Source of the DNA: Methanothrix sp.
GTDB lineage: Archaea; Halobacteriota; Methanosarcinia; Methanotrichales; Methanotrichaceae
Assembly: GCF_024518575.1 (NCBI RefSeq)
Contig: NZ_JANIHG010000016.1
Span: 1-33,376, forward strand
Length of the DNA stretch: 33,376 bases
Direction of reading: 5' to 3'
Part shown: positions 6,703-8,453 of the stretch, in pieces
Position numbering within the stretch: position 1 is the first letter of the stretch
How the letters are laid out: each line of letters opens with the position of its first letter
Translations under genes and position numbers: made by a program
Notes under the pieces: model-generated
Seen by the model: only the letters and a program-made list of their open reading frames with translations
Databases searched by the model: none
Told to the model about the DNA's origin: nothing

Positions 6703-7092
6703 CTATGAGGATCCGCTCTGGCTGAGCAGAGCTCTGAGCTTCTGTATCCGCTCCATGGCCCTGTTAGCCTCCTTGAGCTTCTCCTCCTCGTAGTACTTCA
6801 GTATCTCCTCTATCGATGCTCTGAGCCTGTAGACCTTCACCGGCCTGCCGGTGCCATCGTTCCTCCGCACGCTCTCCTCTATCCAGTTGTGCTTCCTCAG
6901 GGTTCGCAGGGCTATGCTCACTTCTGGCTGCCGCAGATCAGATCCCCTCTCGATGTCTCGAGACGTGGCCTCCTCCACGTTTGCCAGGTAAGCAAGCATG
7001 TTCGAGACCTTTCTGGGAACCCCCAAGCTCCGAAGGATCTCGACCACCTGCATATCCCTAGAGTCGAACTTCATTACATAGGACTCCTTCAT
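6703..7092 (-). CDS. Winged-helix transcriptional regulator (ArsR/TrmB-like)
   Basis: A 129-residue protein. Residues about 10-85 form a helix-turn-helix with wing: LGVPRKVSNMLAYLANVEEA, then TSRDIERGSDLRQPEVSIAL as the recognition helix region, then IEESVRRNDGTGRPVKVYRL as the wing. A charged helical tail (about 92-125) is suited to dimerisation. No metal-binding cysteines are visible, so it is not a classical metal-sensing ArsR. The ATG at 7092 has GAGGGAG about 5 nt upstream. An in-frame ATG at 7074 (starting MKFDSRD) with a GGAG upstream is an alternative. It is monocistronic with its own TATA box. The target is unknown. Confidence 0.75.
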   Translation of the reverse strand: MKESYVMKFDSRDMQVVEILRSLGVPRKVSNMLAYLANVEEATSRDIERGSDLRQPEVSIALRTLRKHNWIEESVRRNDGTGRPVKVYRLRASIEEILKYYEEEKLKEANRAMERIQKLRALLSQSGSS

Positions 7093-7150: not shown

Positions 7151-7452
7151 TTTATTTCTGTTAAATAATTCTAATCAATCTTTTTACTTTGGCACATGAT
7201 ATTAATAGTAAACAACATATGCGCAGTCTCTTGAGAATGAATTTGAGGGCTCTCAGGAATCCACAACATAAGAGCAAATCTCAGCATGTCTGCAGAGGGT
7301 TCTGATACCATGAGACGCAACCGCATGCGACGATTCCGAGGAGCACCTATGCATGCGCATTGTCTGGGCATCTCACACCTTCCCGATGAGGCATGGAAGC
7401 ATGATCTATCTGCGATCAGCCAGTGAAAACATGTTCTCGATCTGCTGGACGC
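7151..7452. other. Gene-poor stretch, AT-rich at its left end
   Basis: About 300 bp between the regulator promoter and the MITE. The first 70 bp are markedly AT-rich compared with the rest of the window. A 66-codon minus-strand frame (7171-7371) has no recognisable features and is not called. The last 8 bp (7445-7452) are one copy of the MITE target duplication. Confidence 0.5.
7445..7452 (+). repeat. Left target site duplication of the MITE
   Basis: CTGGACGC, identical to 7569-7576 and abutting the left terminal inverted repeat with no spacer. Confidence 0.8.
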
Positions 7453-7568
7453 TGCTGTGTTGAATAATTAAGAGCTTTAAGGTCGATAGCTATTGATTTT
7501 TACTAGGGTTGCAATTCGTATGAATCCAGCCTATGCTATCGGATTCTCAAACATTATTCAACACAGCA
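7453..7568. mobile_element. MITE-like element, 116 bp, with 8-bp target site duplication
   Basis: Perfect 16-bp terminal inverted repeats: TGCTGTGTTGAATAAT at 7453-7468 and its exact complement at 7553-7568. The similarity continues imperfectly inward, with a shared CGATAGC block about 20 bp in from each end. The element is flanked by a perfect direct repeat CTGGACGC at 7445-7452 and 7569-7576, as expected for a transposition target duplication. It is far too short to code for a transposase, so it must have been moved in trans. The 8-bp duplication limits the donor to IS families that make 8-bp duplications, but I cannot name the family. Removing the element and one repeat restores a continuous sequence leading into the downstream promoter. 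Confidence 0.85.
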
Positions 7569-7576
7569 CTGGACGC
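7569..7576 (+). repeat. Right target site duplication of the MITE
   Basis: CTGGACGC, identical to 7445-7452 and abutting the right terminal inverted repeat. It lies 5 bp upstream of the TATA box of the downstream gene, overlapping the position expected for a BRE. Confidence 0.8.
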
Positions 7577-7581
7577 GGCAG

Positions 7582-7589
7582 TTATATAA
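7582..7589 (+). promoter_or_regulatory. TATA box of the phosphate-binding-type protein
   Basis: TTATATAA centred 28 bp before the ATG at 7614, which predicts a nearly leaderless transcript. The MITE junction is at 7576, so the transposon stopped just short of the core promoter. Confidence 0.65.
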
Positions 7590-7613
7590 GATGCTGATGA
7601 GAGTGTGAGTGTG

Positions 7614-8453
7614 ATGGCAACGTCTAAAACACTGCCTCCGATCCCATTTCTGCTGCTGGTACTTATCCTGCTTTTAGTGCCATCAAATGGTGTGGAGCGG
7701 GTCCGCGTCTCGGGATCCACCACCGTCATGCCCCTCGCAGAGCTCTGCGCTGAGGAGTTCAATTTCGTGCGCAGTGAGTACATGGTCACAGTCACAGCCG
7801 GCGGGTCCGGCGTGGGGATAATCGACGCTGCCGAGGGAAGAGCGGATATAGCCATGTGCTCGAGGGAGATAAAACCCTCGGAAAGGGCGCTTTATGAGAG
7901 GCCAGATCGCAGATTCAGGGAGATACTGATCGGCTACGATGCGATAGTGATAGTCGTGAGCCCGCAGATATACAACAGCGGTGTCAGGGCCCTCACAGCG
8001 ACAGAGGTCAGAAGGATATATTCTGGGGAGATAAGAAACTGGAAGTCGGTCGGAGGGCCTGATAGAGAGATCATGGTGGTGGGAAGAAAGGCGGGTTCAG
8101 GCACCAGAGACACATTCAATGAGATCATCATGGGATCCGCGGCTGCTGAGACCCCGGGCGTGAGCATCGAGGCCATGGACAGCTCAGAGGTCAAGACCGC
8201 GATACTCGGGAGCGACAGGGCCATAGGCTACCTGGGATACAGCTATGTGAAGGCTGGAGGAGTGATGCCGATCGCGCTGGATGGTGTTCATCCAACGATT
8301 GATAACATAAGGAGCGGGAACTACACGCTCGCGAGGAAGCTGTACTTCTACACATTCGGCGAGCCTACCGCCGGAGCAAAAGCATTCATAGACTTCGTTC
8401 TGGGGCCAGAGGGTCGAAGGATAGCGGAGATGCACGGGTTCATACCGCCATGA
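7614..8453 (+). CDS. Exported phosphate-type ABC substrate-binding protein (PstS family)
   Basis: A 279-residue protein beginning with a short charged head and a long hydrophobic run (about residues 9-23) that acts as a signal peptide. Family signs are SGSTTVMPLAELCAEEF, then AGGSGVGIIDAAEGRADIAM with SREIKP following, and GRKAGSGTRDTF: the phosphate-cradle loops of PstS-like proteins. It would capture phosphate or a similar oxyanion outside the cell for an ABC permease. No pstC, pstA, pstB or phoU follows, so it is solitary here. I chose the ATG at 7614 because of the TATA spacing. An in-frame GTG at 7605 would add three residues. A MITE lies immediately upstream of its promoter. Confidence 0.85.
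   Translation: MATSKTLPPIPFLLLVLILLLVPSNGVERVRVSGSTTVMPLAELCAEEFNFVRSEYMVTVTAGGSGVGIIDAAEGRADIAMCSREIKPSERALYERPDRRFREILIGYDAIVIVVSPQIYNSGVRALTATEVRRIYSGEIRNWKSVGGPDREIMVVGRKAGSGTRDTFNEIIMGSAAAETPGVSIEAMDSSEVKTAILGSDRAIGYLGYSYVKAGGVMPIALDGVHPTIDNIRSGNYTLARKLYFYTFGEPTAGAKAFIDFVLGPEGRRIAEMHGFIPP

Follow-up and report, generated by a model that had tools for sequence, protein, structure and literature searches.

MITEs of the type II pattern resemble an IS at their ends alone (PMC10969869). In the archaeon Haloquadratum walsbyi, MITEs have their ends in common with a regular transposon and an unrelated interior, the helper sets their target duplication, and some families have no functional helper (PMC3119063). 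The Chunjie MITE of Geobacter uraniireducens occurs in tens of intergenic copies, one of which affects a phosphate-uptake locus (PMC10969869). Within the IS5 family, the ISH1 group, to which ISTth7 is assigned, is listed with lengths of 900-1150 bp and 8-bp duplications (PMC6352166).

Analysing a 33,376-bp stretch of Methanothrix sp. DNA (the window; contig NZ_JANIHG010000016.1), we found a 116-bp element with the anatomy, genomic copies, target duplications and empty orthologous site of a MITE, together with an IS in the same genus that has matching ends and duplication length. We are highly confident that this is a non-autonomous type II MITE of a Methanothrix-group archaeon, most likely mobilised in trans by an IS5-family (ISH1-like) element, and that its insertion left a core promoter intact while displacing the DNA upstream of it. 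It represents a new family within this familiar class. Like the Haloquadratum walsbyi MITEs it is archaeal and has its ends, but not its interior, in common with a regular transposon; it differs from them in host class and in the sequences of ends and interior. Like Chunjie it has tens of intergenic copies and touches a phosphate-related locus; however, Chunjie is bacterial, is 178-235 bp long and disrupts an operon, whereas the Methanothrix element leaves gene and core promoter intact. Its candidate helper resembles the ISH1 group of IS5 (for example ISTth7) in its IS5-type transposase (NF033579), length of about 1 kb and 8-bp target duplication, a placement by length, duplication and profile; the MITE itself has no transposase. 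A search of open-licence papers found no MITEs described for Methanosaeta. The present case offers a clean pairing of MITE and IS in archaea, from a group of methanogens with environmental importance.

The MITE, assigned below to subfamily A, occupies positions 7453..7568 (+ strand, an arbitrary orientation), an assignment based on its ends and on copies in its own genome and two congeners. Its left 16-bp terminal inverted repeat, TGCTGTGTTGAATAAT (7453..7468, + strand), has its exact reverse complement at 7553-7568 (16/16 by sequence and repeat search). The element is flanked by direct repeats of CTGGACGC at 7445..7452 and 7569..7576, both read from the sequence and neither assigned a strand. 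Both the perfect ends and the 8-bp repeats are thus exactly as the initial annotation, made from the letters of the window, had described them. The order at the site is CTGGACGC-element-CTGGACGC-GGCAG-TTATATAA, the five bases GGCAG separating the right duplication from the TATA-like box TTATATAA (7582..7589, + strand) of the downstream gene, which is the 5-bp distance previously reported. The element is well below the 500-bp bound for MITEs and, at 116 bp, cannot encode a transposase; it has terminal inverted repeats, a target-site duplication and multiple copies.

Copies were gathered by search and by locus in the window's own genome (G000; 1.66 Mb in 72 contigs). The initial annotation had proposed a search for further copies, and it returned 42 matches, comprising 40 near full-length copies of 91-100% identity, one 76% relative and one fragment. 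Matches were also found in the congeners G003 (31) and G005 (17) and in a genome of another genus, G032 (three), and no relatives of the element were found among plasmid, phage or viral-contig sequences. Allowing up to three mismatches, the 16-bp end occurs 127 times in the 1.66 Mb, against one occurrence of a reversed-pattern control. Taken with the 42 matches, this places the inverted ends far beyond chance.

The type-A copies (n = 39) lie one to seven bases from their consensus, differ from each other by a mean of 5.9 bases and retain perfect 16-bp ends in 22 cases. Since the two nearest copies are 99% identical to the window copy and it has derived bases in common with four others, the window copy belongs to a young subgroup. 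The earlier description of the insertion as recent therefore holds relative to species divergence, the element being absent here in five relatives, but the mean of 5.9 differences does not fit a single fresh burst.

The PstS-type gene next to the element was located in all six genomes of the genus, and the site was compared in the five relatives; the element was not found at this place in any of them. G002, G003 and G004 read GCTGGACGT, then GGCAG or CGCAG, then TTATATAT, with one target copy and no element; the single CTGGACGT, which corresponds to the left duplication of the window, directly precedes GGCAG or CGCAG and TTATATA. G005 has a related sequence, ACAGAACGTGGCAGTTATATAT, at the orthologous site, and G001 has a different upstream sequence that is likewise element-free. 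The empty site anticipated by the initial annotation is thus found in three relatives, and because relatives carry the same promoter with one target copy and no element, the insertion in the window is the derived state.

A conserved family might also consist of ordinary intergenic or structured-RNA sequence that merely resembles a MITE. The strand does fold more stably than shuffled sequence (z about -5), and throughout the genus the family has retained a length of 116-117 bp. However, most of the fold is contributed by the 16-bp ends, and the predicted interiors fold differently in each subfamily. Empty orthologous sites and copies at unrelated places with 8-bp duplications require transposition, leaving this reading extremely improbable. 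Structured RNA as such was ruled out, since a search of Rfam returned no match and no interior fold is common to the subfamilies. The MITE assignment is instead borne out by the copies, the duplications, the empty sites and a full IS with the same ends.

That IS, whose existence the earlier reading had made a matter for searching, was found by a genus-wide DDE_Tnp_1 search combined with stray ends from the pattern search, and it is present as a 1003-bp form in G000 and a 988-bp form in G005. The G000 IS starts at C42:16339, reaches the end of that contig and continues through C24:1-529; its 1003 bp are joined over an exact 127-bp overlap of the two contigs, a typical assembly break, and may combine two copies. 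TGCTGTGTTGAATAA stands at both of its ends, its ORF reaches the end of the IS without a stop codon, and a further right end, 96% identical, lies in contig C18. In G005, nine identical 988-bp copies with TGCTGTGTTGGATAA ends are present, six with perfect 8-bp duplications and a seventh (L141) with a duplication that reads as 9 bp. Against the IS5-family model NF033579, with its cut-off of 140, the two transposases reach 251 and 265 bits; both carry PF13737 and PF01609, and in both a Y-x2-R-x3-E-x6-K signature can be recognised by eye. In G023, a relative 1031 bp long has the same ends together with an 8-bp duplication and a transposase of 82% identity, and similar transposases among named records are mostly in Methanosaeta/Methanothrix MAGs. 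With its IS5-type DDE transposase, 8-bp duplication and length (988 bp) within 0.9-1.15 kb, the candidate helper fits the IS5 family, and it fits the ISH1 group by size and duplication length only.

The MITE and the IS agree at their ends. The left inverted repeat agrees with one end of the full IS at all 16 bases and with the other at 15, and the right inverted repeat with four more bases (7549..7568, - strand) is identical over 20/20 positions to the end at which the transposase starts. Subfamily A thus has 20 bp in common with the G000 IS at one end and 15 bp at the other. Interior matches between MITE and IS (blastn-short) are at chance level with a single exception, 13 bp that match the G005 IS (E 0.001), so that likeness to the autonomous element is confined to the terminal 15-20 bp, as in type II MITEs. 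An origin of the MITE by simple internal deletion of the IS was ruled out, similarity stopping 15-20 bp from the ends.

A second MITE subfamily, B, has different ends (GGATAAGT) and 13 copies in G000. Its relatives number at least 40 in G001, 23 in G004 and nine in G002, and related MITEs are present in all six Methanothrix genomes examined. Subfamily B (TGCTGTGTTGGATAAG...) has 17 bp in common with the G005-type IS; because A matches the G000 IS over 20 bp and B the G005-type IS over 17 bp, the end variants track the IS variants. Trans-mobilisation and its end specificity are directly testable in this group, where copies are numerous, relatives retain empty sites and each of the two end variants has a corresponding IS lineage.

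The helper might instead be another transposase, one that simply accepts the same ends. No matching IS5-type transposase was found in G001 or G004, despite their many related copies with duplications; most copies read in these two genomes have duplications of 8 or 9 bp. This absence is weak evidence, as draft assemblies often lose multi-copy IS, but copies without a detectable matching transposase mean that another or a lost helper has to be allowed for. Against a different helper stand the IS with identical ends in the element's own genome, the same duplication length in the G005 IS and the tracking of IS variants by subfamily ends, and we regard it as very unlikely. The 116-bp element is a type II MITE, most likely mobilised in trans by the matching-end IS, which we infer to be the source of the mobilising enzyme.

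In detail, an IS5-family (ISH1-like) DDE transposase from the IS of about 1 kb, which has the same terminal 15-20 bp, would act on the MITE ends in trans and join the MITE to a target cut with a stagger of 8 bp or, at times, 9 bp. The target preference is weak, T before and A after (about TTTN[8]NAAA), and the surviving copies are mostly intergenic. The window copy inserted 5 bp ahead of the TATA box belonging to the PstS-type gene and pushed the upstream DNA 124 bp off.

Duplications were analysed in 82 elements with flanks from G000, G003 and G005, the second subfamily included. Over 8 bp, left and right flanks are identical in 45 elements, a number that rises to 59 when one mismatch is allowed, whereas agreement at 6 or 7 bp was seen in none of the 82 and at 9 bp in one element; a few copies, in this set and in G001 and G004, have 9-bp duplications. 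Around the duplication, the averaged target has T at positions -4 to -2 and A at positions +10 to +12. With mechanical ORF calling, six of the 38 type-A or A-like copies that had enough flank fall within ORFs of 150 aa or longer, versus 75% of random positions at the same loci, and the window copy was scored as inside through such an ORF though it lies between two real genes. At several loci (L067:15597-15839, L080:1372-1616, L062:251-399 and L059/L060:67-198), MITE or IS copies adjoin or overlap others, which suggests clustered or nested insertion.

Each of the four groups compared has a consensus of 116 bp, and most G001 and G004 copies measure 117 bp. Similarity between the interiors of A and B barely exceeds that of shuffled sequences (10 of 1000). 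One may conceive of a single genus-wide superfamily in which a length of 116-117 bp (about 11 helical turns), and not the interior sequence, is selected for transposition, and which in some species persists or moves without a helper of its own. Interiors diverged almost beyond recognition, ends that track the local IS and a steady length of 116-117 bp would speak for such selection, a reading that we nonetheless consider distinctly unlikely. The subfamily-B-like MITEs at L189-L208 (G001 and G004) are mostly 117 bp long with 8- or 9-bp duplications, and shortened MITE copies of 111-112 bp recur.

The gene downstream of the window copy (7605..8453, + strand; alternative ATG at 7614) encodes a PstS-family substrate-binding protein (TIGR02136 above cut-off, PF12849), as had been proposed. 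The gene beyond it is deoxyribonuclease IV, not pstC, and pstCAB does not follow; each of the six genomes has a second PstS-like gene of about 65% identity. Upstream and divergent lies an MreA-family regulator (6703..7092, - strand; NF053756), syntenic and 98-99% identical in G003, G004 and G005, and the MITE sits in the intergenic region common to the two genes. In Methanosarcina, MreA acts as a global regulator of genes for methanogenesis (PMC12918732).

The TATA box reads TTATATAT in four element-free relatives. Compared with the relatives, the core promoter of the window is unchanged, including the bases beside the TATA box, because the target duplication restored them. The archaeal BRE is located in the bases next to the TATA box. 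The initial annotation held that the insertion had replaced whatever lay upstream, but that DNA is still present, 124 bp further away. It had also suggested that a phosphate-responsive site might have been displaced by 124 bp. The displacement of upstream DNA stands, and includes a partly conserved block (GATCTGTCTGCGATC) now 124 bp further from the promoter; however, no known regulatory site was identified, and a phosphate-response effect of the insertion is unsupported.

More broadly, the insertion might have rewired the PstS-type gene, with a phosphate response lost or gained or a promoter borne by the MITE. The separation of GATCTGTCTGCGATC from the promoter would allow this, and MITEs of other organisms can carry promoters (PMC10969869). 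The unchanged core promoter and bases just before it, the lack of an identified regulatory site and a gene that pstCAB does not follow weigh against rewiring, which we judge unlikely while leaving it an appreciable chance. A strong effect on the gene is unlikely, and its regulation has presumably changed little. The chief interest of the locus is that it provides a natural case of 124 bp of added spacing at a promoter that is otherwise conserved.

Some IS and MITE copies border rearranged DNA. The G000 IS at C42 (L064, C42:16339) and a MITE at C23:8066-8181 (L209) each lack their own duplication partner and have CCAAGAGG in common. In G001-G004 the left flank of C42 is contiguous with the right flank of C23, so the two once lay on either side of a single target site. 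The two remaining flanks lie at distant places in the complete G005 genome, the three loci falling at 761.6, 821.6 and 1198.1 kb. A composite IS-DNA-MITE transposon, suggested by the exchanged target duplication, is unsupported because the inner flanks map to two distant G005 places. The pattern is the trace of a chromosomal rearrangement at these elements, subject to the caveat that C42 and C24 are joined by an assembly overlap. Two further IS copies, at 1053196 (L142) and 1272672 (L144) in G005, lie in opposite orientation with their duplication halves exchanged (TTTCCAAAT/ATTTGGAAA and AACTTTTT/AAAAAGTT), the signature left when the roughly 220 kb between two such copies is inverted.
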